Below are positions 35,786-52,399 of a DNA stretch of 64,000 bases, in pieces (positions within the stretch are counted from its first letter, which is position 1; each line of letters opens with the position of its first letter). A model generated the notes under the pieces. It was not told the origin of the DNA. It searched no databases and saw only the letters and a program-made list of their open reading frames with translations. The translations under genes and the position numbers were made by a program. Origin of the DNA: Phycisphaerales bacterium (GTDB taxonomy: Bacteria > Planctomycetota > Phycisphaerae > Phycisphaerales > UBA1924); contig JADZER010000017.1 in assembly GCA_020850415.1 (NCBI GenBank), positions 124,001-188,000 of the forward strand, read 5' to 3'.

Positions 35786-36282
35786 GGCAAGCCTCCCGGC
35801 GCTGGAGCGCGCCGCCACCCGGCCCTATGCAACCCGCGCGCCAGATCCATCGGGCGCCGAACAGGGCCCCGGGATCGCGTTCGCTGGCGAACCCGCGGCC
35901 GCCTGCCAACCTGGCAGTAAGCTCGCAGCGCCGCACGCCCCCGGTGTCCGACGGATCGCGCGAGGCCGTCGCGCCGGGAGAGCTCGAGTGCTCGGGGCTG
36001 GCGAGCCTCTGCCCGGCGACAACAACCGCGTGCCGGTCTGTTTCCTGGGTGCCCGGGCCGCGGGCTGTTGAGCGCGGCGGGCGATCAGCGGACACAAGAG
36101 GGTGTAATCACCAGCGGGCCGAAGTGTCCTAGATTGCCAATCTTGCATCGGGCGTCAGCGGCTTGGGCGGGCAGGTACGCGCCCCGGGGGGGTCCACAGA
36201 GATTCCCCTTGCCTGGCGAACACCTTCCGATAGACTCCGCTCAGACCCGTAAGTGTCTGCTGCGGGCCAGGAGAGAGCGCCC
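35786..36282. other. Intergenic region between divergent clpB and the beta-helix cluster
   Basis: 497 bp. The ORFs shown on both strands here lack coding character. I see no CIRCE element for clpB. The plus-strand half holds a clear promoter for the beta-helix operon (36209-36236) and a small AGATT/AATCT inverted repeat near 36131. Nothing else could be supported. Confidence 0.6.
36209..36236 (+). promoter_or_regulatory. Promoter of the beta-helix operon (TTGCCT-16-TAGACT)
   Basis: -35 TTGCCT (36209-36214), 16-bp spacer, -10 TAGACT (36231-36236). A leader of about 40 nt with GGAGAG precedes ATG 36283, so this is a conventional Shine-Dalgarno gene. Confidence 0.55.
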
Positions 36283-37530
36283 ATGTTCCGTCAACTCGCC
36301 ACTCCCGCCGCCCTGGGCGGAGCCGTTGTTCTCGCGCTGGTGTCGATGGCCCTGTTCGCCGGCCCGTTGGACCCGCCCTCGGGCCCGGTCGCGCCCACCT
36401 ACAAGACCCTCGCCGAGGTCGAGCCACGCATCGCCATCAACTCCACCAACACCCCCGGCGACGACGACAGCGCGTACAGAATCACCAAATCGGGAAGCTA
36501 CTACCTGACGGCGAACATGCTGATCGGGGGCGAGCGGGGGATCGAGATCGCCGCCAGCGGCGTGACGATCGATCTCAACGGGTTCCAGATCTCGGGGTTC
36601 GGCGGGCTGGAGGCCATCGCCGCGTCCAGCACGGCGCTGGAGCGCGTCACCATCCGCAACGGCTTCATCGCGACATGCAACCAGGGAATCTACCTGCCGG
36701 ACACCCCCGGCGTGATCGTCGACCGGGTCACCGTCGAGGATAGCCTCAATGGCGACGGGATCAATGTGGGCGAGTACTCCGTCGTGCGCGACTGCATCGC
36801 GGTCGGGAACTCAGACTACGGGATCTACGCCGGGGAGGGCAGCTCCGTGGTCGGCTGCGTCGCGAGCGACAACTCCGAGGCGGGCATCGTCGGCCTGGAC
36901 GGGTGCACCATCAGCGCCTGCTCCGCGATCTCCAACGGCGACGCAGGCATCATCGCCCAGTCCCGGTGCATCATCGTCGACTGCACCTCCGCCTTGAACA
37001 CCACCAACGGCATCAGTACCCTTAGCGGCTGCACCATCACCAACTGCTCGGCGGCCGGCAACGGAAGCCAGGGCATCAACGCCCAGGCCGGCTGCACCAT
37101 CACCAACTGCTCGGCGTCCGAGAACGGCGCCGTCGGCATCGCCGCCCTTAACGGCTCCGTGATCGTCGGCTGCTCGGCGACCGAGAACGACAGGGACGGC
37201 ATCGATGTGAGCTTCTCCTGCACCGTCCGCGGCAACACCTGCGCCTACAACGGCTGGCTGAGCGGCAGCGGTGCGGGGATCCGTGTTCAGAACGACGGCA
37301 ACCGCATCGAGGGCAACACATGCATCGGCGCCGACCGCGGCATCGATGTGGACGGCGCCGACAACATCATCGTCCGCAACACCTGCTCGGGCAACACCAC
37401 CAACTGGACCATCGTCGCCGGCAACGCCTACGGCCCGATCGTCGTCACCCCCTCGGGCGGCGCCGTCAGCGGCAACTCGGCCGCCGCGGCCCTGGGCTCG
37501 ACAGATCCCAACGCGAACTTCACCTATTGA
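36283..37530 (+). CDS. Exported right-handed beta-helix protein, cluster copy 1
   Basis: The 415-aa protein has a signal peptide (LGGAVVLALVSMALFAG) and starts at ATG 36283 behind GGAGAG. A conserved head follows (LDPPSGPVAPTYKTLAEVEP, then NTPGDDDSAYRITKSGSYYL). The body is a ladder of about 20-23-residue rungs of the form 'GxxIxxCSAxxNGxxGI', typical of parallel beta-helix (Pbl/PbH1) proteins. The terminal part TTNWTIVAGNAYGPIV and DPNANFTY is shared with copies 3 and 4. Beta-helix proteins often bind or cut polysaccharide, but I see no catalytic residues of a polysaccharide lyase, so the activity is open. Confidence 0.85.
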   Translation: MFRQLATPAALGGAVVLALVSMALFAGPLDPPSGPVAPTYKTLAEVEPRIAINSTNTPGDDDSAYRITKSGSYYLTANMLIGGERGIEIAASGVTIDLNGFQISGFGGLEAIAASSTALERVTIRNGFIATCNQGIYLPDTPGVIVDRVTVEDSLNGDGINVGEYSVVRDCIAVGNSDYGIYAGEGSSVVGCVASDNSEAGIVGLDGCTISACSAISNGDAGIIAQSRCIIVDCTSALNTTNGISTLSGCTITNCSAAGNGSQGINAQAGCTITNCSASENGAVGIAALNGSVIVGCSATENDRDGIDVSFSCTVRGNTCAYNGWLSGSGAGIRVQNDGNRIEGNTCIGADRGIDVDGADNIIVRNTCSGNTTNWTIVAGNAYGPIVVTPSGGAVSGNSAAAALGSTDPNANFTY

Positions 37531-37545
37531 ACGGAAGGACAGACC

Positions 37546-38796
37546 ATGCACCACCCCACACCGTCCGACACCCCCATCCCCGCCGCCCGGGCCCCGGAGC
37601 GCCGCGCGATGCTCGCCGGCCTCGGCGGGCTGGCCGCCGGAGCCATGCTGGCGGGCGGGAGGGCGGCGCAGGCCGGCCCCCTCGACCCGCCCGCGGGCCC
37701 GGTGACCAGCACCGGCAAGACCCTGACGGAGGTCGAGCCGCGGATCGCGGTCAACGCGGCCAACACCCCCGGCGACGCGGACAACCAGTACAGGATCAGC
37801 CAGCCGGGCTCCTACTACCTCACCGGCAACATCACCGGCGCCTCGGGCAAGACCTGCATCTACATCGCCAGCTCGCGCGTGACGCTCGATCTCAACGGGT
37901 TCGCGCTCAACGGGGTCGCGGGGGCGGTGAACGGCGTCCGCGCCAACGCCAACCACGGCGTCGCGATCCGCAACGGGAGCGTGCTGGACTTCGCCACAGG
38001 CATCGACGCGCAGGAGACCAACGGCTCGCGCCTCGACAACCTCTGCGCCACCTCCAACAACATCGGCTTCAAGATCGGGCTTACCGCCGTCGTGACCGAC
38101 TGCACATCGGTGGACAATGCCTCCACCGGCTTCACGGTGTTCTCGACCTCCTCGCTGACCCGCTGCAGCTCCCGCGGCGGGGGCTCGCGCGGGTTCAGCA
38201 TCGGGCGCGGGTGCACGCTCACCGACTGCAACGCGTGGACCGCCGCGACCGGGTTCTTCATCGACGGCGAGAGCGTGCTTGAGAAGTGCAGCTCCCGCGA
38301 GAATTCCAGCCACGGCTTCAATATCCAGGAGTCGTGCGTGCTCATCGGGTGCAACGCATATGACAACGGCGGCATCGGCTTCTTCGCGACGGCCCGGTCG
38401 CGCATGACCAACTGCGTCTCGAGGGCCAACGCCTACGGCTTCAGCATGGTCGAGGCGAACGCGCTCGTGGAGTGCACCTCCGCGAGCAACACCACCGACG
38501 GGCTCTTCATCGACGGCAACGCCAACACCGTCGAGCGGTCCACCTTCCACGAGAACACCCGCTACGGCATCAACCTCACCAGCGGCGTCGGCAACACCAT
38601 CGACGGCAACCTGATCACCTACAACGGCGACACCGGGCTCCGCGTGAACGCCTCCAACAACCTCGCCACCCGCAACCGGGCCCGCGGCAACGGTGCGAAC
38701 TACACCTTCGTCAGCGGCGCCGACTACGGCGTCGTCCTCACCAACCCGGGCGCGGGGTTCACCTCCTCGGCCGCGTGGGCCAATTTCGCGTACTGA
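37546..38796 (+). CDS. Exported beta-helix protein, cluster copy 2 (Tat-like leader)
   Basis: The 416-aa protein begins 15 nt after copy 1. Its leader differs from the other three: a longer n-region with APERRAMLAGLGGLAAGAMLAGG, a plausible twin-arginine signal. After cleavage the same head module appears (GPLDPPAGPVTSTGKTLTEV ... NTPGDADNQYRISQPGSYYL), then 'GF.I...C.L..C.a' rungs of beta-helix type. The end WANFAY corresponds to NFTY in the others. Export of one copy by Tat while its sisters use Sec would be unusual; the exact route needs a predictor. Confidence 0.8.
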   Translation: MHHPTPSDTPIPAARAPERRAMLAGLGGLAAGAMLAGGRAAQAGPLDPPAGPVTSTGKTLTEVEPRIAVNAANTPGDADNQYRISQPGSYYLTGNITGASGKTCIYIASSRVTLDLNGFALNGVAGAVNGVRANANHGVAIRNGSVLDFATGIDAQETNGSRLDNLCATSNNIGFKIGLTAVVTDCTSVDNASTGFTVFSTSSLTRCSSRGGGSRGFSIGRGCTLTDCNAWTAATGFFIDGESVLEKCSSRENSSHGFNIQESCVLIGCNAYDNGGIGFFATARSRMTNCVSRANAYGFSMVEANALVECTSASNTTDGLFIDGNANTVERSTFHENTRYGINLTSGVGNTIDGNLITYNGDTGLRVNASNNLATRNRARGNGANYTFVSGADYGVVLTNPGAGFTSSAAWANFAY

Positions 38797-38853
38797 CCAC
38801 CCCACCACCGACCCCGCCACCATCCCCCCCCCCGACCCCCGAGAAGCCCACCC

Positions 38854-40167
38854 ATGCACCGCCACACCGCACCCATCATCGCCGCCCTCGCCCTCGGCTC
38901 CGCGGCCCTGCTCCTCGCCGGCCCGCTCGACCCGCCCGCGGGCCCCGTCGCGCCCACCTACAAGACCCTCGCCGAGGTCGAGCCGCGCACCGCCATCAAC
39001 TCCACCAACACCCCCGGCGACGCCGACTCACTCTACAGAATTACCCAGCCCGGCTCGTACTACCTGCCCGGCAACATCACCGGCGTTGCCGGCAAGCAAG
39101 GCATCCAGATCGAGGCGTCCAGCGTCACGGTCGACCTCGGCGGGTTTGCATTGACGGGAGTGCCCGGATCGCTCGCGGGGATATCGGTCGAGGGCACACG
39201 CACGGGCGTCGCGGTCACCAACGGGACGGTGGGCGGCTGGGGCGGGGAGGGTGTGATGCTGATCAACCCGGCCTCGGGCAGCGGTGAGCAGCAGCGTGTC
39301 GAGCGGATCAACTCGGTCGGGAACGCGGAGGAGGGCATCGTCGTGGGCGACGGGTCCGTCGTGCGGAACTGCCAGGTCCGCGACTGCATGGGCTCGCAGG
39401 GCATCCGGGCGCGGGGCACCGCGCTGGTCGACTCGTGCGTCGTGATCGATAACAACGGGGTCGGGATCGACGCGGGCAGCGGGTCCACCGTGACCAACTG
39501 CACGGTCTCCGGGAGTTCGACATCGGGGATCATCGTCGGCGACGGCGCGACCGTCACGGCGTGCACCTCTCGCGGCAACGGCGCAGGGGGCATCATCGGC
39601 GGGTTCGGGTGCACGCTCTCTCACTGCAACACATCGCTCAACGACGCCATGGGCGTGAGGATCGACTTCGAGGGCAACATCACGGCATGCAGCTCGGTGG
39701 GCAACGGGACATTCGGCTTCCAGCTGGGCTACCGCTCCCTGATCGTGGGCTCCTCGGCCGAAACGAATGTCGCCGACGGGATCTACGCGTTCGGAACCTG
39801 CACGATCCGGGCGAACAACTGCTCCTCCAACGGCTCGGGCGGCGACGGCGCCGGCATCCACACCACCGGCGATGACTCCGTCATCGAAGGCAATCACTGC
39901 GAGTCCAACGACCGGGGCATCGACATCGACGGCGACGGCGCCCGCGTCGAGGCCAACATGTGCGCCGGCAACGGCATCGGCTACGCCATCAACGGCGTCG
40001 ATAACTTCTTCTCACGCAACACGGCGCGGGGCAACGCCACGAACTGGGCGGTCGTCGCGGGCAATGTGATCTTCGTCGTCGAGGCCGCCACGGCGGGGAT
40101 CGTCGTGGGCGACAGCGGCGGCGTCTCGCCCGGCAGCACCAACCCCAACGCGAACTACTCGCACTGA
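38854..40167 (+). CDS. Exported beta-helix protein, cluster copy 3
   Basis: The 437-aa protein has the signal peptide IIAALALGSAALLLAG and the head LDPPAGPVAPTYKTLAEVEP, which is nearly identical at the DNA level to that of copy 1. The rungs run GGxxxCxxRGNGAGGIIGG and similar. The C-terminal part includes RGNATNWAVVAGN and NPNANYSH. A 57-nt C-rich gap separates it from copy 2. The near-identity of the head with copy 1, against diverged rungs, points to repeated duplication with selection or conversion on the head. Confidence 0.8.
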   Translation: MHRHTAPIIAALALGSAALLLAGPLDPPAGPVAPTYKTLAEVEPRTAINSTNTPGDADSLYRITQPGSYYLPGNITGVAGKQGIQIEASSVTVDLGGFALTGVPGSLAGISVEGTRTGVAVTNGTVGGWGGEGVMLINPASGSGEQQRVERINSVGNAEEGIVVGDGSVVRNCQVRDCMGSQGIRARGTALVDSCVVIDNNGVGIDAGSGSTVTNCTVSGSSTSGIIVGDGATVTACTSRGNGAGGIIGGFGCTLSHCNTSLNDAMGVRIDFEGNITACSSVGNGTFGFQLGYRSLIVGSSAETNVADGIYAFGTCTIRANNCSSNGSGGDGAGIHTTGDDSVIEGNHCESNDRGIDIDGDGARVEANMCAGNGIGYAINGVDNFFSRNTARGNATNWAVVAGNVIFVVEAATAGIVVGDSGGVSPGSTNPNANYSH

Positions 40168-40200
40168 TCGTCGAACACCACCAACCACCCGGAACCACAC

Positions 40201-41523
40201 ATGAAGCGCAACACCATCACCTGCACCGCCATCGCGTCGCTCACCCTCCTCGCCGGCGCCGCCCTCCTCCTCGCGGGCCCGCTGGACCCGCCGAACGGGC
40301 CGGTGTCGCCGACATACAAGACCCTCGCCGAGGTCGAGCCGCGGATCGCCGTCAACGCGACCAATACCCCCGGCGACGCCGACAGTGTCTTCAGGATCAC
40401 CCAATCCGGCTCGTACTACCTGACCGCCAATGTGTTGGGGGAGAGCGGCAAGCACGGCATCCAGATCGCCGCGAGCAATGTCACGCTCGACCTCGCCGGC
40501 TTCGCGCTCCGCGGGGCCGCCGGGTCGCTCGACGGGATCAATGTCGCTACCTCCCGCGGGGTGGGCATCACCATCCGCAACGGGACGATCAGCAACTGGG
40601 GCGACTGCGGGCTTGAATGCGAGTACAACGCGGGAAACCCGCCGCAGGTCGCCCTCCACGATCTGCACGCCGACGGGAACGCCACCGAGGGCTTCCGCCT
40701 CGAACGCGACAATGTTGTCACCGCGTGTTTCGCGCTCGAGAACGGCGGCGATGGCTTCAATGCCGTCGCCAACACCACCTTCGCCCTGTGTATGGCCAAG
40801 TTCAACGGCGGGACGGGCCTGGATTCCGGGAGCGGTTCGGTCGTCAACGGGTGCATCGCGGCCGCCAACGCCGGCAACGGCTTCGCCCTCGCCCTCCAGA
40901 GCACGCTCGCCGATTCGATCGCCGAGGGCAACGCGATCGGCATCACCGCCCAGGCCAGCGTCATCCGCGACTGCGTCGTCTCCAGCAGCGACAGCCACGG
41001 CGCCTCCGTCTTCGGGGCGTGCACCATCGCCGATTCCACCTTCTACCGCAACGGCGGGAACGGCGTCGACCTCAACGGCGGCACCAACATCAAGAACTGC
41101 ACCGCCACCGAGAACGACGGCAGCGGCTTCAGCATCGGCACGACCTCCTCCATCCAGGGCTGCACCGCCCGCGACAACGGCAGCCACGGCATCAAGGCCA
41201 CCAACGCGGCGATCATCCTCCAGAACCAGTGCTACAACAACGGCCAGGGTCTGCTCGCGGGCGCCGGCATCAGCGTCGACGGGTCGGACAACCGCGTCGA
41301 GGGCAACAACTGCTCGAGCCAGGACCTCGGCATCGATGTCAACGCCGGCGGCAACATCATCATCCGAAACACCTGCTCGGGCAACACCACCAACTGGACC
41401 CTCACGAGCGGAAACTCGATCGCCCCGATCGTCGCCGCCTCCACCAACCTCTTCGGGGTCAGCGGCGACACCTACGCCGGCAGCCTCGGCTCCACCGACC
41501 CCAACGCCAATTTCACATACTGA
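40201..41523 (+). CDS. Exported beta-helix protein, cluster copy 4
   Basis: The 440-aa protein has the signal peptide TAIASLTLLAGAALLLAG and the head LDPPNGPVSPTYKTLAEVEP ... NTPGDADSVFRITQSGSYYL. Beta-helix rungs follow to the shared tail CSGNTTNWTLTSGNSIAPIV and DPNANFTY. The tail DNA around CSGNTTNWT matches copy 1 over about 30 nt. The short intergenic distances (15, 57, 33 nt) indicate one transcript for all four, and probably for the WGENIGW-repeat gene 33 nt further on. Confidence 0.8.
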   Translation: MKRNTITCTAIASLTLLAGAALLLAGPLDPPNGPVSPTYKTLAEVEPRIAVNATNTPGDADSVFRITQSGSYYLTANVLGESGKHGIQIAASNVTLDLAGFALRGAAGSLDGINVATSRGVGITIRNGTISNWGDCGLECEYNAGNPPQVALHDLHADGNATEGFRLERDNVVTACFALENGGDGFNAVANTTFALCMAKFNGGTGLDSGSGSVVNGCIAAANAGNGFALALQSTLADSIAEGNAIGITAQASVIRDCVVSSSDSHGASVFGACTIADSTFYRNGGNGVDLNGGTNIKNCTATENDGSGFSIGTTSSIQGCTARDNGSHGIKATNAAIILQNQCYNNGQGLLAGAGISVDGSDNRVEGNNCSSQDLGIDVNAGGNIIIRNTCSGNTTNWTLTSGNSIAPIVAASTNLFGVSGDTYAGSLGSTDPNANFTY

Positions 41524-41556
41524 TCCCATACGCGCGCAAGCGAAAAGGACCGAACC

Positions 41557-42225
41557 ATGAACCGTATCCACCAGACTACAGCCGCCGTCGCGCTCGCCCT
41601 CGCAACCCTCCTCGCCGCACCCGCCCTCGCCCAGTCCGACATCCTCCCCAAGTACAAGCACGCCTGGGGCGAGAACATCGGCTGGCTCAACTGGCGGGAC
41701 GCCGGAGACCCCGAAGGCCAGCAGGGCGTCGCCTACTACGGCAAGTACCTCGGCGGCTATGTCTGGGGCGAGAACACCGGCTGGATCACCGTCGGCGACG
41801 GCTCACCCGCCAACGGCTCCGCCTACGCCAACACCGCCGGCGCCGACTGCGGCGTCAACATCAACACCTCCACCGGACACCTCACCGGCATGGCCTGGGG
41901 CGAGAACATCGGCTGGATCAACTTCAACGGCGGCGCACTCGCCACCCCGCCGCAGCCCGCCCGCCTCGACTTCGACGCCTTCCGACTCCGCGGCTACGCG
42001 TGGGCCGAGAATGTCGGCTGGATCAACCTCGACGACGACGAGCATTATGTCGCCTTCTTCTGCCCGGCCGACTTCAACCAGGACTTCCTCGTCAACACCC
42101 TCGATGTCCTGGCGTTCCTCAACGCGTGGGCCAACGGCCAGCCCGGAGGCGACTTCAACAACGACGGCACCATCAACACCATCGATGTCCTGGCCTTCCT
42201 CAACGCCTGGGCCGCGGGCTGCTGA
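41557..42225 (+). CDS. Secreted WGENIGW-repeat protein with GC-type dockerin tail
   Basis: The 222-aa protein has the signal peptide ALALATLLAAPALAQ. The core carries a tryptophan-rich repeat four times: HAWGENIGWLNW, YVWGENTGWITV, MAWGENIGWINF and YAWAENVGWINL, spaced about 35-45 residues. Two dockerin-like repeats (DFNQDFLVNTLDVLAFLNAW; DFNNDGTINTIDVLAFLNAW) and a terminal AGC follow. The first dockerin loop reads QDF where Gly is normal, so its Ca site may be weak. The W-repeat suggests a carbohydrate- or surface-interacting fold; no function is assigned. Confidence 0.8.
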   Translation: MNRIHQTTAAVALALATLLAAPALAQSDILPKYKHAWGENIGWLNWRDAGDPEGQQGVAYYGKYLGGYVWGENTGWITVGDGSPANGSAYANTAGADCGVNINTSTGHLTGMAWGENIGWINFNGGALATPPQPARLDFDAFRLRGYAWAENVGWINLDDDEHYVAFFCPADFNQDFLVNTLDVLAFLNAWANGQPGGDFNNDGTINTIDVLAFLNAWAAGC

Positions 42226-42282
42226 GCCCGCCGCCCACGCGCCGTCCCCCCGCCGACCGACCCAGAACCCCCGTCAAGAGGG

Positions 42283-42311
42283 TTGGTCAGCGCCCCGGGG
42301 CCCGATAGACT
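42283..42311 (+). promoter_or_regulatory. Promoter for the FG-GAP gene pair (TTGGTC-17-TAGACT)
   Basis: -35 TTGGTC (42283-42288), 17-bp spacer, -10 TAGACT (42306-42311). AAGGAGG lies in the leader before ATG 42343. Confidence 0.55.
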
Positions 42312-42342
42312 CTGGTCGGTCCGGCTCGTGAAGGAGGGGCGC

Positions 42343-44685
42343 ATGTCCAGCTATCGGTCCTTAGCAGCAGCGTTTTTCCTCGCCGTCGGCCTCGCCTTCG
42401 GCGCCGGCAGTGCCGCGGCACAGTGCGAGCACCCCTGGTTCCCGCACCGCGCCGTGCCCGATACCTTCGACCTGCAGACGGCGCTCGACCTCAACGGCCG
42501 GGGCCTGCTCGAGCTCGTCGGGCTCCGCACCGACACGCACCGGCTTGAGCTGGTCACCTTCGACGACGCCCCGCAACCCACCGGGACGGTCCTCTTCGCC
42601 AGCGATGTCGGCCTCGCGCTCGCCGCGGCGGATTTCGACGGCGACGGCGACGCCGATCTGATGATCCACCGCCCCAGCGCCGGCGCCCTCCGGATCCTCT
42701 TCAACGACGCCGGCACGCTCGTCGAAGGGCCGGACATCGACGCCCCCGACGGCTACATCTGCGCCACCGACTTCGACACCGACGGCGATCAGGACATCGC
42801 CCTGGCGAGCAACGGCCTCGTCAGCGTCTACCTGAACGACGGGGCCGCGGGCTTCGCCGCCGGACCGAGCATCCCGCTCGGCGAGTTCGCCCTGGGCGTC
42901 CACCCCGCGGCCCTGGACGCGGACGGCCGCCCCGACCTGATCGCCTACCTCTCGGTCGCCGGTGTGGCGACGGCCTTCCCCGTCCGCCAGACCGTCGCGG
43001 GTCAGCTCGAGGCGGGGCCCGGCGTCGCCGCCAGGCTCCGCGCCGTCGGCGATGCCGACGCCGACGGATACACCGACATCGTCGCCCTGCCGGTCAACCT
43101 CCACCGGGGCAACGGCGCGGGCGGCTTCCTCGGCCCTGCCCAGATCGCGCCGGGCTACGACGAGGCCAAGCACCTCGCCGACCTCGACCACGACGGCGAC
43201 CCGGACCTGATCGCCAACACGCTCGACGGCGACCTCCGCGTCCTCGCCAACAACGGCTCGGGCGCCTTCACCGAGATGCCCGGCGATGTCGGCCGAGACC
43301 CGGCGTGGGGCCCGGTGATCACCCCCGATATGGACGGCGACGGCAACCCCGACCTCGTCACCGGACGCTACGCCGGGACCGACATCTGGACCGGCAACGG
43401 CGACGGGACCTTCGCGGGCAACCCGCCCGTCCCGCTGTTCGGGGGCCAGATCCGGCGCATCGCCTGCGCCGATCTCGACGGCGACGGCGACACCGATGTC
43501 ATCGCCGTCGGCGACCCGGTGATGAACGGCAGCCAACGCTCGCTCGTCGCGCTCGCCAACAACGGCGACGGGGTCCTCACGCAGTTCGCCGGCACGGCGC
43601 TCCCCGCGGCGGACTACCTCGAGACCCCGGTGCTCGCCGACCTCGACGCCGACGGCGACCCCGACGCCGCGCTCATCGTCAACGACCAGGTCGTCATCCT
43701 GGAGAACACCCCCGCCGACCCGTTCACCACCACGCACACCCTCGCCTACGAGTTCGACGCCGACCCCGGCCTGGTGCTCTTCGGCACGGACCTGAACAAC
43801 GACGGCCTCACCGACCTCGTGGCCCCGGGGCGCGACGGCCCGCTGGGCGGCGTGAGGATCTTCCTGAACGACGGCGGGCTCGCGTTCACCCCGTCCCTCG
43901 CCCCGACCACCAACGGCTACGACACCGTCCTCGCCGCCGCCGACTTCGACCGCGACGGCAACGCCGATGTCTTGCTCGGCGATTCCGGTCGCGGCCCGAT
44001 CGCGATCTGCTTCGGCAACGGCGACGGCACGCTCACGCCCCGCTTCCTCTACGAGAACACCAACTACGACTTCTCGCACGGCTACACCGCCGACCTCAAC
44101 GCCGACGACGCCCCCGACCTCGTGCTCCAAGAGGTCGCACGCGACCGCTTCTATGTGCTCCTCAACGACGGTTTCGGCGGCCTCTACGCCTCGCAGAACC
44201 ACCGCGGGTACAACCAGGCCCGCGGCATCGGCGTCGGCGACCTGAACGGCGACGGCCCCGACGACCTCGCCGTCGGCCAGGCCCTCGTCTACGACGCCGC
44301 CGGCGTCTTCCTCGCCGACACCACCGGGCACCTCGACGAGCCCATCCCCTTCACCACCGGCCTCGTCGAGCTCCGCGGCACGCAGATCGCCGACATGAAC
44401 GGGGACGGGGCCGGCGACATCGTCATCGCCGGGAACGCCAGCCAGTACGGCGGCGGCGCCGTCGCGATCTCCATGAACCCCTGCACGCCCCCGCCCTGCC
44501 CCGCCGACTTCAACCACGACGGTGCGGTGAACACCTCCGACTTCGTCGCCTTCCTCAACGCCTGGGCCCACCAGCGCAACCAGGACTGCACCGGCGGCGG
44601 CTGCAGCGCCGACTTCAACGACGACGGGCAGGTCGATACCAGCGACTTCGTCGCGTTCCTCAACACCTGGGCACAGGGGTGCTGA
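42343..44685 (+). CDS. Secreted FG-GAP/VCBS beta-propeller protein with GC-type dockerin tail
   Basis: The 780-aa protein starts at ATG 42343 behind AAGGAGG; the track start is 20 codons too early. After the signal peptide (FFLAVGLAFGAGSAAAQ) the body has a dozen or more FG-GAP/VCBS-type calcium loops (for example DFDGDGDADLMI, DLDHDGDPDLIA, DLNGDGPDDLAV), typical of integrin-like seven-bladed propellers. The C-terminus has two dockerin-like repeats split by a cysteine-containing insert (RNQDCTGGGCSADFNDDG), a feature not seen in the other tails here, and ends QGC. The function is unknown. Two nucleotides separate its stop from the next ATG. Confidence 0.85.
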   Translation: MSSYRSLAAAFFLAVGLAFGAGSAAAQCEHPWFPHRAVPDTFDLQTALDLNGRGLLELVGLRTDTHRLELVTFDDAPQPTGTVLFASDVGLALAAADFDGDGDADLMIHRPSAGALRILFNDAGTLVEGPDIDAPDGYICATDFDTDGDQDIALASNGLVSVYLNDGAAGFAAGPSIPLGEFALGVHPAALDADGRPDLIAYLSVAGVATAFPVRQTVAGQLEAGPGVAARLRAVGDADADGYTDIVALPVNLHRGNGAGGFLGPAQIAPGYDEAKHLADLDHDGDPDLIANTLDGDLRVLANNGSGAFTEMPGDVGRDPAWGPVITPDMDGDGNPDLVTGRYAGTDIWTGNGDGTFAGNPPVPLFGGQIRRIACADLDGDGDTDVIAVGDPVMNGSQRSLVALANNGDGVLTQFAGTALPAADYLETPVLADLDADGDPDAALIVNDQVVILENTPADPFTTTHTLAYEFDADPGLVLFGTDLNNDGLTDLVAPGRDGPLGGVRIFLNDGGLAFTPSLAPTTNGYDTVLAAADFDRDGNADVLLGDSGRGPIAICFGNGDGTLTPRFLYENTNYDFSHGYTADLNADDAPDLVLQEVARDRFYVLLNDGFGGLYASQNHRGYNQARGIGVGDLNGDGPDDLAVGQALVYDAAGVFLADTTGHLDEPIPFTTGLVELRGTQIADMNGDGAGDIVIAGNASQYGGGAVAISMNPCTPPPCPADFNHDGAVNTSDFVAFLNAWAHQRNQDCTGGGCSADFNDDGQVDTSDFVAFLNTWAQGC

Positions 44686-44687
44686 CC

Positions 44688-47120
44688 ATGCGGGGCAAAC
44701 TCCCGGCCGTCGTGCTCGCGTGCCTCGCCGCCCGCGCTGGTGCGCAGGACTCGTTCCCCTTCTTCGGCTACCGCGCGCTGGACGCGACCGGCGCCGCGGC
44801 CGTCGTCGATCTCGACGGCGACGGGCTCCCCGAGGTCGTCGCCCGGGGCGCCCAGTTCATGACCCGCGTCTTCCACAACGCCGGCAACGCCCGGCTCGAC
44901 GCCTTCACCGACTACGCAAGCCCCGAGTACCCAGCGCGCCCCTCCGGCGCCGATGTCACCGGCGACGGCATCCCCGACCTCACGGTCCTCGGCCTCGGGG
45001 AACACATGCTCTGCGTGCGCCAGGGCCAGGGCGCCGGACAGTTCGGCGCCCGCACGGATTCACCCGTCCCCGCCGGGGCACGCCTGTTCGTGCTCGCCGA
45101 CCTCACCGGCGACAACCTGCCCGACGCCGTCGCCGACGACGGCGCGCAGCTCATCCTGTTCCCGGGCGACGGGTCGGGCGCGTTCGGCGCACCCCAGCCC
45201 CTCGGCGCGGCCGCCGCAAAGATCACCGCCCTCGCCGCCGCCGACCTCAACGCCGACGGCCTCACCGACATCGTCGCCCTCTCCGCCGACACCCCCGACT
45301 GCCTCATCCTCCTCGCCACGCCCGGGGGAGGGACCGACGCCCCCATCCACCTCGCCGCCCAGGACGGCGCGACCTCCCTGGCCCTCGCCGACGCCGACGC
45401 CGACGGCGCGACAGATATCCTCATCGGTCAGACCAACGAGGGCGGAGGGCACCCCCGCGGCGTGTGGCTGTACACCAACGACGGACTCGGCGCCTTCGCC
45501 CAGCCCGGCGCCTTCACCTCAACCGGCGTCCCCGACGCCTCGACGCAGCCCCTCGCCATCGGCGTCGCCGAACTCTCCGGCGACGGCCTGCCCGACCTGG
45601 TCGTCGCCGGCGCCGAGCTCCTCCTCTTCCGCGGCACGGGCGAGCCGCAGGCCCCCTTCGCCGACGCCGTCGTCTGGGGCAGGCTCGACGAGCCGACCTC
45701 CGTCGCGTTCGGCGATCTCAACGGCGACGGCAGCACCGACATGGTCACCGCCGGGCGCGACTGCAACGCCTTCCTCAACGACGGCGCCGGGCGATTCCTC
45801 GCCCGGTGGACCACCCTGCCCTTCGTCCAACCCGCGAAGCTCGCGCCCGGGGACCTCAACGCCGACGGCACGCCGGACCTCGGTATCCTCGCCGAGGTCG
45901 GGCGCGACGACGACCATTCCTCCAGCCTCACCGTGCTCCTCTCCGACGGGGCCGGCGGCTACGCGCAGACCGAACCGGTCAGCCTCCCCGCCGACGCGAG
46001 GCTGTTCAGCCTCCAGCCGATCGACCAGAACGCCCCCGGCGAGCTGGACATCGTCGTCGCCGACCTGAACGGCTTCCTCTGGCTCCCCAACCTCGGGGGC
46101 TACGGGCAGCAGTGGCTCGGCCTGGGGCAGCCGAGCATCATCAACCACAACTACAACGACATGCCCCTCGCCATCGTGCACGCCGACTTCGAGTTCTACG
46201 GCAACGAGCAGAACACGCCCGACCCGGACCTGCTCCTCGTCAGCACGCACCGGGGCGGCTCGGCCTCCGAGACCTACTTCCACACCTTCCGCAACGACGG
46301 CGCCGGCGGATACAACGCGGAGCCGACGGTGACGCTCCCCTACGGCGCGATCTGCGCCGCCGGCGCAGACACCGACGCCGACGGCGATACCGATATCGTC
46401 TACGCATCGAACAGCCCCTCCTCCGCCCTGCGGACGCGGCTGAACCAGGTCAACGGAAGTGTTATCAAGGACCGGCAGGACTACGCCGGGATCAGCGACC
46501 TGGCCGATGTCCGCATGCTCGACAGCAACGAAGACGGCGCCCCCGACGCGGTCGTCTACTCCGCCAGAGACAACGACTACAGCGGCGGCGCCACCCTCCT
46601 GCTCAACCGAGGCGACGGCAAGTTCGAGTCGCCCCGGGGGCTCTTCGAGCGCGCCGGCATCGCCTTCGACCTCGGACTCATCAACGACGACCAGTGGGCC
46701 GACGCGGTCGTTCTCAGCGGCGTGGCGTCGTGGAACTTCCCGGAGCTGGCCGTCTTCCTCGGCGATGAGTACGGCGGCTTCTCCGGCCCCTATGTCACCA
46801 CGCTCCAGACCTTACCGGCCGGTTGGCAGGCCGAGGATGTCGCCATCGTTGACATCGACGCCGACGGCCAGGGCGAGGTCGCCGCGGCGGTCTCCCACAC
46901 CGACTACCCCTCCCTCGGCGCCGTGCTCCTCCTCGAGCCCCGCGCCCCCGACCCCTGCCCCGCCGACTTCAACCAGGACGGGGCCGTCAACACCATCGAT
47001 GTCATCGCCTTCCTCGGCGCGTGGTCCGCCGGGGACCCCAGCGCCGATGTCAACCACGATGGCCTGGTCAACACCCAGGATGTGATCGCCTTCCTCGGCG
47101 CCTGGGCCGCCGGCTGCTAG
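44688..47120 (+). CDS. Secreted FG-GAP/VCBS beta-propeller protein with GC-type dockerin tail
   Basis: The 810-aa protein starts 2 nt after the previous stop codon, so translation is probably coupled. The track ORF from 43305 runs through the preceding gene out of frame and is not used. The signal peptide is KLPAVVLACLAARAGAQ. FG-GAP loops run throughout (DLDGDGLPEVVA, DLTGDNLPDAVA, DLNADGLTDIVA, DADADGATDILI). The tail is DFNQDGAVNTIDVIAFLGAW / DVNHDGLVNTQDVIAFLGAW ending AGC. It shares general layout with its upstream neighbour but little sequence outside the loops. The function is unknown. Confidence 0.85.
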   Translation: MRGKLPAVVLACLAARAGAQDSFPFFGYRALDATGAAAVVDLDGDGLPEVVARGAQFMTRVFHNAGNARLDAFTDYASPEYPARPSGADVTGDGIPDLTVLGLGEHMLCVRQGQGAGQFGARTDSPVPAGARLFVLADLTGDNLPDAVADDGAQLILFPGDGSGAFGAPQPLGAAAAKITALAAADLNADGLTDIVALSADTPDCLILLATPGGGTDAPIHLAAQDGATSLALADADADGATDILIGQTNEGGGHPRGVWLYTNDGLGAFAQPGAFTSTGVPDASTQPLAIGVAELSGDGLPDLVVAGAELLLFRGTGEPQAPFADAVVWGRLDEPTSVAFGDLNGDGSTDMVTAGRDCNAFLNDGAGRFLARWTTLPFVQPAKLAPGDLNADGTPDLGILAEVGRDDDHSSSLTVLLSDGAGGYAQTEPVSLPADARLFSLQPIDQNAPGELDIVVADLNGFLWLPNLGGYGQQWLGLGQPSIINHNYNDMPLAIVHADFEFYGNEQNTPDPDLLLVSTHRGGSASETYFHTFRNDGAGGYNAEPTVTLPYGAICAAGADTDADGDTDIVYASNSPSSALRTRLNQVNGSVIKDRQDYAGISDLADVRMLDSNEDGAPDAVVYSARDNDYSGGATLLLNRGDGKFESPRGLFERAGIAFDLGLINDDQWADAVVLSGVASWNFPELAVFLGDEYGGFSGPYVTTLQTLPAGWQAEDVAIVDIDADGQGEVAAAVSHTDYPSLGAVLLLEPRAPDPCPADFNQDGAVNTIDVIAFLGAWSAGDPSADVNHDGLVNTQDVIAFLGAWAAGC

Positions 47121-47243
47121 CCACCACCACGCGAACAACCACCGACACCCGCGCCCCCCAGAAACCACAATCGCCCCGCGCCCCCTTGCCCGCCCCCGCC
47201 CCCCGGTGCAACCGCCGGCTGCTGACCGAGCAGCCCTCACCGC

Positions 47244-49367
47244 TCACTCATCCACCGCCACAAGCTGCACCGCGTCGGCGACCACGAACCCATCGGCCCC
47301 CCCGCCCCCGACGCGCACCACGACCAACGCACCGGGAGTAACGGCGACCCGCCCCACCGGCGCCCACAGCCCGTCGATCGGCGGGCGCTGCCGCTGATCC
47401 AACCACCGCACCTGCCGCGCGTCCCCCCACTCCACCGCCACCGGCACGCGGCTCGCCCGGTTCTCATGCGCCGAGTACGACACCCGCACCTCGTACACCC
47501 CCGCGGGCGCCGACGCGACAAATGTCACCGCGCCCGCCCCGTTGCCGCCCCCGCCGCCGCCCCCGTCGTGCAAATACCCCCGCCCGACGAATAGCCCGAC
47601 CGAGTTGCTCGCCGTCCAGCTCCCCTCCAGCACCGCCTCCCCGTCGTCGATCACGATCCCCCCGAGCGACGAGACCGCGACCCCCCGCGCCCGGGCCTCC
47701 CCGTGCCCGAGCACCTGCCCATCCGCGAGCAGTTGCTCCCGCAGCGCCGCGTACTCCAGGTCCTGCACCGCGACGCCGCGACGCATCGCCATCACCCCCG
47801 CCGTCGCCGCCGACTGCCCCAGCACCATGAACACCGGCTCCATCCGGATCGACCCGTACGCGATGTGCGACGCGCTCACGCACACCGGCACGAGCAGGTT
47901 CTCGCACTCGCCCCTCCGCGGCACGATCGCCCCGTACGCGATCGGGTACGCCCCGCCCGGGCTCACCTGCACATCGCCCTCGTTGCGCACCACCGCGCGC
48001 CCGCCCTCCCCCACCGCCGCATGCCGCCGCACATGGTGGGAGTCCATGTTGTACGACCCCATCCCCACCGACCCCGGCGTCGGGTCGATCCCCCGCAGCA
48101 TCGGCTCGGTCATCACCACCTCCCCCACCATCCGCCTCGCCTCGCGCACATAGATCTGGCGGGGCCAGTTCGCGTTGCCCCGGAACTCGTCGGCCGCGAG
48201 CCCCCACTCACGCATGCTCGCCCGCACGCTCTCGGGCACGCGCGGGTCGCTCACCAGGAACCAGAAGAACCCGCGCTGGTACCGCTCGTGCTCGGCGAGG
48301 ATCTCCGCCCGCTCGGCATAGGTCGCCTCGGGGTAGGCATAGTTCATCCCGATGTTGTCCGTGCTGAACGCCCCGTTGTTGTTCGTGTCCGTCTTGCCGT
48401 TGGGCATCGGGTCGGGCTTCATCAGCGTCGCGTCGGGCTTGGCGACCAGGTACCGCAGCAGCAGCTCGTACTGCCCAGGGTCGTACCCCGCGGGCTCGGT
48501 GAACGGCACGCGGTTCTCCGGCACGCGGGTCATGCACAGCCTGTAGGTGTACGCCTGCACTCGGTGGTCGCCCCCGCCCTCCACCCCCGGCCCGCCCGCG
48601 TCCACCCGCGCCAAGAGCCCGCTCGACGGATCCCCCTCGACGACATACGGATCGACACCGACCTCAAACTGATGCTTCACCGCGTTCGCCGCCTGCACGC
48701 CGTTGAGTGTCTCACCGTACACGCCGTTCGCCTCGCGCCCCACGGCGTACGACACCCCCGCCGCCGCCATCAGGTCGCCCTCATAGGTCGCGTCGATGAA
48801 CACCCGCCCCGCGAACCGCTCCCCCGAGAGCATCCGGATCGACCCGATCCGCCCGCCCCGCAGGCGCACCCCACGCTCGCGATCGAGCCACCGCCCGTGG
48901 AACACCGGGACCCCCGCCTCGGCGAGCATGGTCCCCATCACCCACTCGGCCGCGTGCGGCTCAAACACCCACATCGCGTCCTCACCCGGCCGGTACCGCG
49001 CAAACCCGTCGCGATCCTCCCACCGCCACGCCCCGTCACTCTCGTAGTGCAGCCTGATCCGCCGGTAGAACTCGCGCGAGATGCCGCCGATCACCGCCTT
49101 GTCCCCCGAGTCGGTCCAGCCCAGCCCGTTGGTCGTCATCCCGCCGACATGGTCCTCCGGGCACACGATGGCGACGGTCGCCCCCATCCGCGACGCCTGC
49201 ACCGCCGCCGCCACCCCCGCGGCTGTCCCGCCGTACACCACGAGATCGAACTCTCGCCGTGCCGGCCGCTCCCCCGTCGCGCACCCGCCCAGCACGCAGG
49301 CGGCGGCCGCGACGACCCACACCCGCACATTTCGCAGACACGCCCACCTCGCACAACGATCGCTCAT
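47244..49367 (-). CDS. FAD-dependent oxidoreductase lipoprotein (PF12831 type)
   Basis: The 707-aa protein is targeted by a lipobox signal (WVVAAAACVLGGC). The FAD-binding start is FDLVVYGGTAAGVAAAVQASRMGATVAIV, followed by DHVGGMTTNGLGWTD and later the FIDATYEGDLMAAAGVSYAVGREANGVYGE motif, all characteristic of the exported 'FAD-dependent oxidoreductase' family common in Planctomycetes. The last 140 residues form a separate beta-rich domain (VYEVRVSYSAHENRASRVPVAVEW) resembling a golvesin/CBM-like module. The substrate is unknown. A TAGGCT hexamer lies 7 nt before ATG 49367 with no Shine-Dalgarno, so this may be another leaderless gene. Confidence 0.85.
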   Translation of the reverse strand: MSDRCARWACLRNVRVWVVAAAACVLGGCATGERPARREFDLVVYGGTAAGVAAAVQASRMGATVAIVCPEDHVGGMTTNGLGWTDSGDKAVIGGISREFYRRIRLHYESDGAWRWEDRDGFARYRPGEDAMWVFEPHAAEWVMGTMLAEAGVPVFHGRWLDRERGVRLRGGRIGSIRMLSGERFAGRVFIDATYEGDLMAAAGVSYAVGREANGVYGETLNGVQAANAVKHQFEVGVDPYVVEGDPSSGLLARVDAGGPGVEGGGDHRVQAYTYRLCMTRVPENRVPFTEPAGYDPGQYELLLRYLVAKPDATLMKPDPMPNGKTDTNNNGAFSTDNIGMNYAYPEATYAERAEILAEHERYQRGFFWFLVSDPRVPESVRASMREWGLAADEFRGNANWPRQIYVREARRMVGEVVMTEPMLRGIDPTPGSVGMGSYNMDSHHVRRHAAVGEGGRAVVRNEGDVQVSPGGAYPIAYGAIVPRRGECENLLVPVCVSASHIAYGSIRMEPVFMVLGQSAATAGVMAMRRGVAVQDLEYAALREQLLADGQVLGHGEARARGVAVSSLGGIVIDDGEAVLEGSWTASNSVGLFVGRGYLHDGGGGGGGNGAGAVTFVASAPAGVYEVRVSYSAHENRASRVPVAVEWGDARQVRWLDQRQRPPIDGLWAPVGRVAVTPGALVVVRVGGGGADGFVVADAVQLVAVDE

Positions 49368-49487
49368 ACCCGGCAGCCTACCCGCAGACGGCCCGGCATT
49401 TCTCCGAGTCCGCTACCGGAGCGCGCCCCCGCGATCTCGCGTCTCTTCCAGAGACGAGACCCATAACCCAGCACACCGGAGCACGCC

Positions 49488-50645
49488 ATGCGCACCGCAG
49501 CCATCGCCGTCCTCGCCACCGCCGCACTCAACGCCCACGCCCAGCCCACCTTCCAGGGCCTCGGCGACTTCCCCGGCGGCGGGTTCTACTCCGACGCCTG
49601 GCGCGTCTCCAACGACGGCCGGGCCGTCGCCGGCGCCGGCGAGCCCGCCTCCGGCCTCACCGCCCAACGCTGGACCGCCACCGACGCCCTCGTCCGCCTC
49701 GGCACACTCCCCGGCTTCGAGGATTCCAGCTTCGCCACCGGCCTCTCCGCCACCGGCCGCGCCGTCTGCGGCTACAGCTCCGGCGCCGGCGGCACGGAGG
49801 CCTTCCGCTGGACCGCCGACTCCGGCATGACCGGCCTCGGCGACCTCCCCGGCGCGCCCCACGCCAGCGCCGCCAACTACATCGCCGCCGACGGCGCGAC
49901 CGTCGTCGGCACAGGCAACCAGGACTACAACGCCGGCGCCATGGAAGCCTTCCGCTGGACCGAGGCCACAGGCATCGTCGGCCTCGGCCACGCCCGACAG
50001 AACCACGACTGGAGCGAGGCATGGTGCTGCTCGGCCGACGGCGCCATCGTCGCCGGGCTCAGCATGCAGAACTTCGTCGGAGGCGAGGCCTTCCTCTGGA
50101 CGCAGGCCAACGGCATGACAGGGCTCGGCGATGTCGTCGGCGGCGAGGACTTCAGCGTCGCCGTCGACATGACCCCCGACGGCGCGGTCCTCACCGGCAC
50201 CTGCGCCCCCGACGCCGGCTACGAGGCCTTCCGCTGGACACAGGCCACCGGCATGACCCCCCTCGGCGACCTCCCCGGCGGCGGCCACTACTCCACCGGC
50301 ATCGGAGTCACCGACGACGGCAACACCATCGTCGGCCTCGCCGACTGGGACGGCGGCTTCGGCGCCTCCAACGCCTTCATCTGGGACCCCGCCAACGGCA
50401 TGCGCAACCTCCAGACCGTCCTCGAAACCGAGCACGACCTCGACCTCACCGGCTGGCATCTGCTCTACGCCTACGACATCTCAGGCGACGGCCGCTACAT
50501 CTGCGGCCAGGGCATCAACCCCGCCGGCGACTACGAGGCCTGGCTCGTCGACCTCGGCGCCTGCCCCGCCGACTTCAACGGCGACGGCGCGGTCAACACC
50601 CTCGATGTCCTCACCTTCCTCAACGCCTGGAACGACGGCTGCTGA
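49488..50645 (+). CDS. Secreted HAF-repeat protein with GC-type dockerin tail
   Basis: The 385-aa protein has a signal peptide ending NAHAQ. Seven HAF-type repeats follow: PGGGFYSDAWRVSNDGRAVAG, then several 'EAFRWT..TGM.gLGDLPGG' blocks. The end is DFNGDGAVNTLDVLTFLNAWNDGC, so only one complete dockerin-like repeat is present where its homologue at 2786 has two. The repeat layout is otherwise like the 2786 gene, and the pair are probably paralogues. A small GTCTC/GAGAC hairpin lies in the 5' leader, and CGGAG precedes the ATG. The function is unknown. Confidence 0.85.
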   Translation: MRTAAIAVLATAALNAHAQPTFQGLGDFPGGGFYSDAWRVSNDGRAVAGAGEPASGLTAQRWTATDALVRLGTLPGFEDSSFATGLSATGRAVCGYSSGAGGTEAFRWTADSGMTGLGDLPGAPHASAANYIAADGATVVGTGNQDYNAGAMEAFRWTEATGIVGLGHARQNHDWSEAWCCSADGAIVAGLSMQNFVGGEAFLWTQANGMTGLGDVVGGEDFSVAVDMTPDGAVLTGTCAPDAGYEAFRWTQATGMTPLGDLPGGGHYSTGIGVTDDGNTIVGLADWDGGFGASNAFIWDPANGMRNLQTVLETEHDLDLTGWHLLYAYDISGDGRYICGQGINPAGDYEAWLVDLGACPADFNGDGAVNTLDVLTFLNAWNDGC

Positions 50646-51163: not shown

Positions 51164-52378
51164 TCACGCCGAGATCTTCTTGGTCCGGCCGGTCGACCGG
51201 GCAGTGGAACCGGAACGCACGCACTCGTCAAACACCGGCGTTAAGATGTTCTGATCAAGCCACCGGATGACCGGTACGCACACGCCGTCACCGAAACCAA
51301 ACAGGGACTGGACCGTGTTGGGCGCGAGCTTGAAGCGGGGTGCGCCCTGGAGCCTGGCGTACTCCCGGGGCGACATCCAGCGAAACCGCACCTCGCCTTC
51401 GTGAATCACCATGACGATCTGCCTCGCACTCCCCCCGCGCGGTGTTCTCAAGCACCCGGCCAGATTGTCAAACCTCACCTCCGCTCGCATGACATCGTTG
51501 CGGCAGCGCCGATACACGGTGCCGACATGGAGTCCGCCGGCCGTACGGCGATGTTCCACCTCTCGACGGTGCAGATCGCTCAACATCCCGTAGTGCTTCG
51601 CCGTCGCCGTCTCGTCCCACCACTCCTGATCCGAGTCCGTGTCAATGACCGCACTGAGCGAGTATTTGGCCTGCTTTGGGGCGCGAGGACCTAGCGTCGC
51701 CCAGCCCGTGGCCAGCTCAGTGCGCTCCATCAAACGCCTGAGCACCGGCGGGCGCAGCGCCCCACCGACCTCGATCGCCGCCCGCCATGGGTCATCGAGG
51801 CCTCTCACTCCAGAGCCCTGCCGGATGACCCGCCCTGAGTCGACCGTTTCGTGGACGCCAATGACAAACACTCGCGGTCGGCTCTGCGGGACGAACCACT
51901 TCGCATCCACCACGACGCAATCAAGCCAATAGCCTTCTGCCGCCAAGGTTGTCACCGCTGCCGCAAAATCCGCCCCCCCCTTCGAGGTCAGAAAGCCTGG
52001 GACATTCTCCAGCATCACCAGTTTCGGTCGCCGCCGTCCCAGCGCCTGGAGCGCCTTGATGAACCCGAAATATGTCGACGACTGAGATCCCTCAAACCCT
52101 TGCCAGTGTCCGGCGAGCGACAGATCCGTACATGGGAATGAAGCGGTGGCCAAGAACGGTTCGCCGCTGATCTCCGAGATGATCCGGTCAGTCTGCCAGA
52201 CATCCTCGAGGTGGAAATATGGACTCTCGCCAAACTGGCCCTTGTACATCGCCTCCTTCTTGGGGTCGATGTCATTGGCGTACACACACTCCCAGCCCGA
52301 ACTCTTGAGCGCTTCATGAACCAGGCCGATCCCGGCGAAGAACTCCAAAAAGCACTTTGCAGGACTGTGTTGCGCCAT
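51164..52378 (-). CDS. DNA (cytosine-5-)-methyltransferase of a Type II R-M system
   Basis: The 404-aa enzyme methylates cytosine at C5 in its target site. ATG 52378 has GAGGAG 7 nt upstream; the track start six codons earlier is a GTG. C5-MTase motifs: I, FLEFFAGIGLVHEAL (FAGIG at 14-18); IV, SFPCTDLSLAG (catalytic Cys83); VI, ENVPGF (124-126); VIII, QSRPR (165-169); and a C-terminal target-recognition domain before motif X. Specificity cannot be inferred. Its promoter (52400-52427) lies back to back with that of the controller gene. It forms one R-M island with Vsr, the controller protein and the nuclease. Confidence 0.95.
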   Translation of the reverse strand: MAQHSPAKCFLEFFAGIGLVHEALKSSGWECVYANDIDPKKEAMYKGQFGESPYFHLEDVWQTDRIISEISGEPFLATASFPCTDLSLAGHWQGFEGSQSSTYFGFIKALQALGRRRPKLVMLENVPGFLTSKGGADFAAAVTTLAAEGYWLDCVVVDAKWFVPQSRPRVFVIGVHETVDSGRVIRQGSGVRGLDDPWRAAIEVGGALRPPVLRRLMERTELATGWATLGPRAPKQAKYSLSAVIDTDSDQEWWDETATAKHYGMLSDLHRREVEHRRTAGGLHVGTVYRRCRNDVMRAEVRFDNLAGCLRTPRGGSARQIVMVIHEGEVRFRWMSPREYARLQGAPRFKLAPNTVQSLFGFGDGVCVPVIRWLDQNILTPVFDECVRSGSTARSTGRTKKISA

Positions 52379-52399
52379 CGATCGACTCCTCACCACCGC

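Follow-up and report, generated by a model that had tools for sequence, protein, structure and literature searches.

Exported beta-helix proteins that share both ends and differ in their rungs, and a co-inherited candidate surface adaptor, in an uncultured planctomycete

Phycisphaerae genomes are rich in exported proteins of unexplained role. The repeats of the proteins described here are covered by three models, Beta_helix (PF13229), NosD (PF05048) and TIGR03804. For related freshwater Phycisphaerae (Nemodlikiaceae), a cohesin-dockerin system named the planctosome has been proposed to hold peptidases (PMC6461901). Finally, the ChW repeat (PF07538) of Clostridium acetobutylicum and other Firmicutes carries a GW motif and has been predicted to anchor proteins at the surface or to mediate protein-protein interaction (PMC5817068). 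We compared these systems with an array of four genes and its downstream neighbor in the 4.4-Mb genome of an uncultured planctomycete, starting from a single stretch of 64,000 nt (the window). The rungs of the array proteins match the beta-helix models and their predicted fold is likewise a parallel beta-helix, but these models include neither the head, the common ends, the array organization nor the partner gene described below. Like the planctosome, the locus belongs to the same class of bacteria and encodes exported proteins and a dockerin, which is here carried by the candidate partner. In contrast to the planctosome, whose cargo consists of peptidases, the beta-helix proteins have no dockerin, and no Pfam cohesin (PF00963) was detected in the genome by a search that covered an assembly of 93% completeness and might overlook distant cohesins. 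The candidate partner shares with ChW proteins its export and its short GW-containing tandem repeats; there is a weak similarity between its first repeat and the ChW repeat (best E-value 2e-6, for one member), and one homologue scores above the PF07538 cut-off (27.8 bits against 22). However, its repeat has the form WxENxGWxN, it occurs in a different phylum, and most partner proteins score below the cut-off (10.4 bits for the one in the window).

The array consists of four ORFs on the forward strand (window positions 36283-41523), which encode exported proteins of 415-440 residues and are separated by 15, 57 and 33 bp. Copy 1 (36283-37530; 415 residues; alternative GTG start at 36253) has a Sec-type leader, a head at 36361-36597 and a tail at about 37360-37527. 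Copy 2 (37546-38796; 416 residues) carries a Tat-type leader, its head spans 37675-37914, its tail lies at about 38656-38793, and Pfam Beta_helix and NosD match its rungs. Copies 3 (38854-40167; 437 residues; head 38920-39159; tail about 40000-40164) and 4 (40201-41523; 440 residues; head 40276-40515; tail about 41350-41520) both have Sec-type leaders; copy 4 has no Pfam match and is matched by the TIGR03804 repeat. Classic promoters and terminators were sought within the array and none was found above chance. The alignment of the four copies yields the head consensus GPLDPPxGPVxPTYKTLxEVEPR...NTPGDxDSxxRITxxGSYYL...VTxDLxGF and the tail consensus RNxxxGNxxNW...NPNANFTY. Pairwise identity is 61-75% in the head, 35-61% in the tail and 28-40% in the middle. 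The ORFs, the alignment and these identities confirm the first-pass annotation of this DNA, which had described four exported beta-helix paralogues with a common head and tail and diverged rungs. With the E-values of the head profile given below, this resemblance lies well outside what chance would produce.

The head comprises 80 residues and combines a conserved arm, rich in proline and glycine, with an N-terminal cap. It is followed by a variable number of rungs, mostly of 21 residues each (a spacing of 63 bp in the DNA), and by the tail, which seals the helix with a last strand that terminates in N-hydrophobic-x-aromatic. Mature copy 1 was modeled with AlphaFold from 90 family sequences as a continuous parallel beta-helix (mean pLDDT 95.4, pTM 0.92) with head and tail at opposite ends. 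The best PDB fold matches found by Foldseek are beta-helix proteins, namely the mannuronan C5-epimerase AlgE4 and phage tailspikes, with TM-scores of about 0.5 or lower. The predicted fold and the Beta_helix/NosD-type repeats place the array proteins among the right-handed parallel beta-helix proteins; this includes copy 4, which aligns throughout and is linked to them by its TIGR03804 match. All Pfam and NCBIfam matches to the whole proteins fall in the rungs, and head and tail matched nothing in Pfam or the PDB (for the head, nothing significant in Pfam). Conservation is 0.74 in the arm (residues 1-16), 0.77 in the folded cap and 0.43 in the rungs. The arm was modeled with a pLDDT of only 72-78; being conserved yet poorly ordered in the model, it behaves as expected of a recognition motif. 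Across 229 head-plus-tail proteins, the well-conserved charged residues lie mostly in the head and tail and hardly in the variable rungs. None of these 229 proteins presents a dockerin-like loop or a PEP motif, and no anchor of a known kind was found on the beta-helix proteins.

One possibility was that the head is simply the generic start of beta-helix proteins, without a common tail. We rejected this: across the whole genome, the head profile identified only five loci (the four array copies and one on contig 37; E-values of 1e-37 or better), whereas Pfam Beta_helix scored above its cut-off at no fewer than eight further loci, all without the head. The fifth copy (L010, G000:C37:284000-294000) is solitary, has no partner gene and adjoins a dockerin protein of 600 residues; a family of CxxCH (cytochrome-like) proteins recurs near this copy and at loci L131, L134 and L185. 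Outside this genome, searches with the head profile revealed a coherent head-rungs-tail architecture in hundreds of proteins. Together, the head and tail profiles recovered 229 distinct head-plus-tail proteins in the collected loci, mostly from Phycisphaerales, where arrays are frequent and reach eight genes. Among 61 relatives, the family is patchily distributed over 21 genomes, with tandem arrays in several of them and up to about 50 matches per genome; iterated head and tail profiles identified 119 head ORFs in the DNA of these relatives, and a tail was present in 89. Scanning genome contigs yielded 73 loci that encode 177 distinct head proteins, of which 156 possess a tail; nearly all of these loci belong to metagenome-assembled genomes of Phycisphaerales or other Planctomycetota, in a scan that was itself queried with planctomycete-like peptides. 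Beyond the class, a small number of other planctomycete families also encode head proteins, and some of these proteins possess the tail. Two family members (L127 and L183) carry the labels Dehalococcoidia and "Leptolyngbya", which are probably mis-binned or misnamed planctomycete contigs.

The tail mostly ends exactly at the C-terminus, and N-hydrophobic followed by one to three residues terminates 221 of the 229 proteins; some head proteins below the tail threshold still finish in a similar pattern. Ten tail-less head proteins were scanned for other architectures and presented beta-helix domains or no match at all. A very large expansion was observed in a relative in which many copies occupy both strands of a single 60-kb stretch (L041-L043, G024:C14:10000-69999), with more on other contigs; the partner genes of this genome are located elsewhere. 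Genes for an ECF-type sigma factor and a Ser/Thr kinase adjoin the arrays at some loci only (L054, L141, L155, L178 and L180) and are possibly array regulators. A literature search returned nothing specific on this beta-helix family. As judged from these sequence comparisons, the array is one locus of a large, undescribed and lineage-specific family with constant ends and variable rungs.

The first-pass annotation had proposed that the shared ends serve a common partner. Neighbor analysis of the family loci singled out a concrete candidate, the gene directly downstream of copy 4 (41557-42225, forward strand). Its product combines a signal peptide with four W-x-E-N-x-G-W repeats (about 41656-42060), followed by a GC-type dockerin (about 42061-42222; dockerin_GC NF041540, E-value 4e-13), a domain found in the partner and not in the beta-helix proteins. 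The AlphaFold model of this protein is of moderate quality (pLDDT 80, from 18 sequences) and matches no solved structure in the PDB. Among the 61 relatives, 20 possess both families, one the head only, one the partner only and 39 neither (Fisher 7e-14); the same co-occurrence holds within the window's own taxonomic family (Fisher 1e-9), and both values are optimistic since related genomes were treated as independent. Across 294 genomes of the phylum, the repeat domain occurs in seven of the eight genomes with a strong head and on its own in three (Fisher 3e-11, likewise optimistic with kinship ignored). Of the 73 contig loci, which had been identified solely through the head, 21 contain partner genes, 22 in total. 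All 22 are oriented like the array, and a head gene precedes 21 of them; in the remaining case (L144), a tail-only fragment at the contig start lies upstream. Other families of the class and of the phylum (L190, L191, L193 and L195) retain this order of a beta-helix gene followed by a repeat gene. Partner genes usually number one or two per genome, against one to about 50 beta-helix matches.

We therefore consider, at a probability of roughly 0.4, that these genes form an exported beta-helix family with a co-inherited partner whose constant product serves as the surface adaptor of the variable beta-helix proteins. The dockerin would fix the WxENxGW-repeat protein to the cell surface, and this protein would capture the beta-helix proteins by their head arm (residues 1-16), their tail or both, so that several interchangeable faces could be displayed on one adaptor. 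These faces would probably bind extracellular polysaccharide or other surfaces, given the beta-helix fold and the lack of conservation of any enzyme motif tested. The scheme in its full form, in which one dockerin-anchored adaptor displays a variable set encoded by one to dozens of genes per genome, is a rather doubtful extension of this reading. Of the partner proposed earlier, a co-inherited candidate encoded beside the arrays has thus been found, and its physical interaction with the beta-helix proteins is what we infer. Two modules (head and tail) and one partner repeat, all uncatalogued, travel together across the phylum, and hundreds of "beta-helix repeat" annotations are thereby turned into one testable system. 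If the adaptor idea is true, this system would constitute a modular scheme of surface display without cellulosome-type cohesins.

Alternatively, it is quite conceivable that the beta-helix proteins and the repeat/dockerin proteins are secreted products that share their regulation but do not interact physically, for instance matrix or carbohydrate-binding proteins, and that head and tail are folding caps only. Every parallel beta-helix needs caps, any capped beta-helix would also be expected to have conserved ends, and in the model the head indeed sits at one end and the tail at the other. Moreover, some head proteins encoded beside the partner gene have a diverged tail or none (for example L191 and L193). 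The partner gene is also located elsewhere in the genome in about half of the partner-bearing relatives, which favors independent products and, like the lack of a Pfam cohesin in the array's own genome, counts against an adaptor. Independent products nevertheless do not readily account for the nearly one-to-one presence and absence of both families, for a gene order that is fixed across families of the phylum, or for the conservation of a poorly ordered N-terminal arm that a cap does not need.

It is improbable that the array encodes polysaccharide-modifying enzymes, i.e., lyases or C5-epimerases of variable specificity. This reading draws on AlgE4 and phage tailspikes being the best fold matches, but TM-scores of only about 0.5 reflect a common fold, and few of the well-conserved charged residues lie in the rungs. 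The catalytic DPH motif of C5-epimerases is present in 11 of the 229 proteins and never with a nearby preceding K or R; we therefore rejected an identification as mannuronan C5-epimerase (AlgE/AlgG).

The similarity between the four copies had previously been ascribed to gene conversion, based on DNA described as near-identical in the heads of copies 1 and 3 and in the tails of copies 1 and 4. Exact stretches do exist in these heads (38 nt) and tails (33 nt), but overall identity is only 76% and 74%, respectively. We compared the number of identical codons at common amino acids to the expectation from codon usage, separately for head, middle and tail. Synonymous-codon sharing was close to this expectation in nearly all pairs and regions, and the clearest excess, in the heads of copies 1 and 3 (43 of 57 codons against 34.5 expected), was mild. 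We also built a tree from head and tail, based on few columns and with many forks left open; measured by path, each of the four copies, including copies 1 and 3, has its nearest relatives in other genomes. These two results suggest that the copies are probably old lineages, and their likeness in DNA is probably explained by strong protein constraint combined with biased codon usage. A recent local expansion whose heads and tails were kept alike by gene conversion would fit the two exact stretches and the mild codon excess, but it is very improbable with the other synonymous sites near saturation and the closest relatives of every copy in other genomes.

The history of the locus as a whole was inferred by searching its flanks (tblastn and blastn) against two congeners (G001 and G002). 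A block of 13.6 kb (35845-49487) between clpB and the gene at 49488 comprises the array and the partner as well as an FAD oxidoreductase gene and two FG-GAP/dockerin genes. This block is missing at the same site in both congeners, where about 0.3 kb separates clpB from the orthologue of the 49488 gene. Both genomes also lack the head family and the partner family altogether, which suggests that the pair was gained or lost together. No convincing direct repeats were found at the block borders, and a search for a plasmid or phage origin returned no match. A gene for a C-5 cytosine DNA methylase (51164-52396) lies just past the block.

Finally, each array protein has a signal-peptide-like leader, and that of copy 2, PERRAMLAGLGGLAAGAMLAGGRAAQA, reads directly as twin-arginine (RR-x-M-L). 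TatC is encoded in the genome (C17:112874), and copy 2 is thus predicted to be exported as a Tat substrate. It had been suggested that this copy switched to a Tat-type leader; indeed, on the head-plus-tail tree it groups with five proteins that have Sec leaders, and this set of six is supported. The switch was not a one-off, however, as nearly the same leader is found in many family members of other genomes. The Tat label requires 10 changes on the tree (shuffled mean 19.4), with at least four of them forced, on starred branches, in a tree where some rows are overlapping copies of one locus and favor clustering. Sec and Tat leader classes have probably been exchanged several times within the family.
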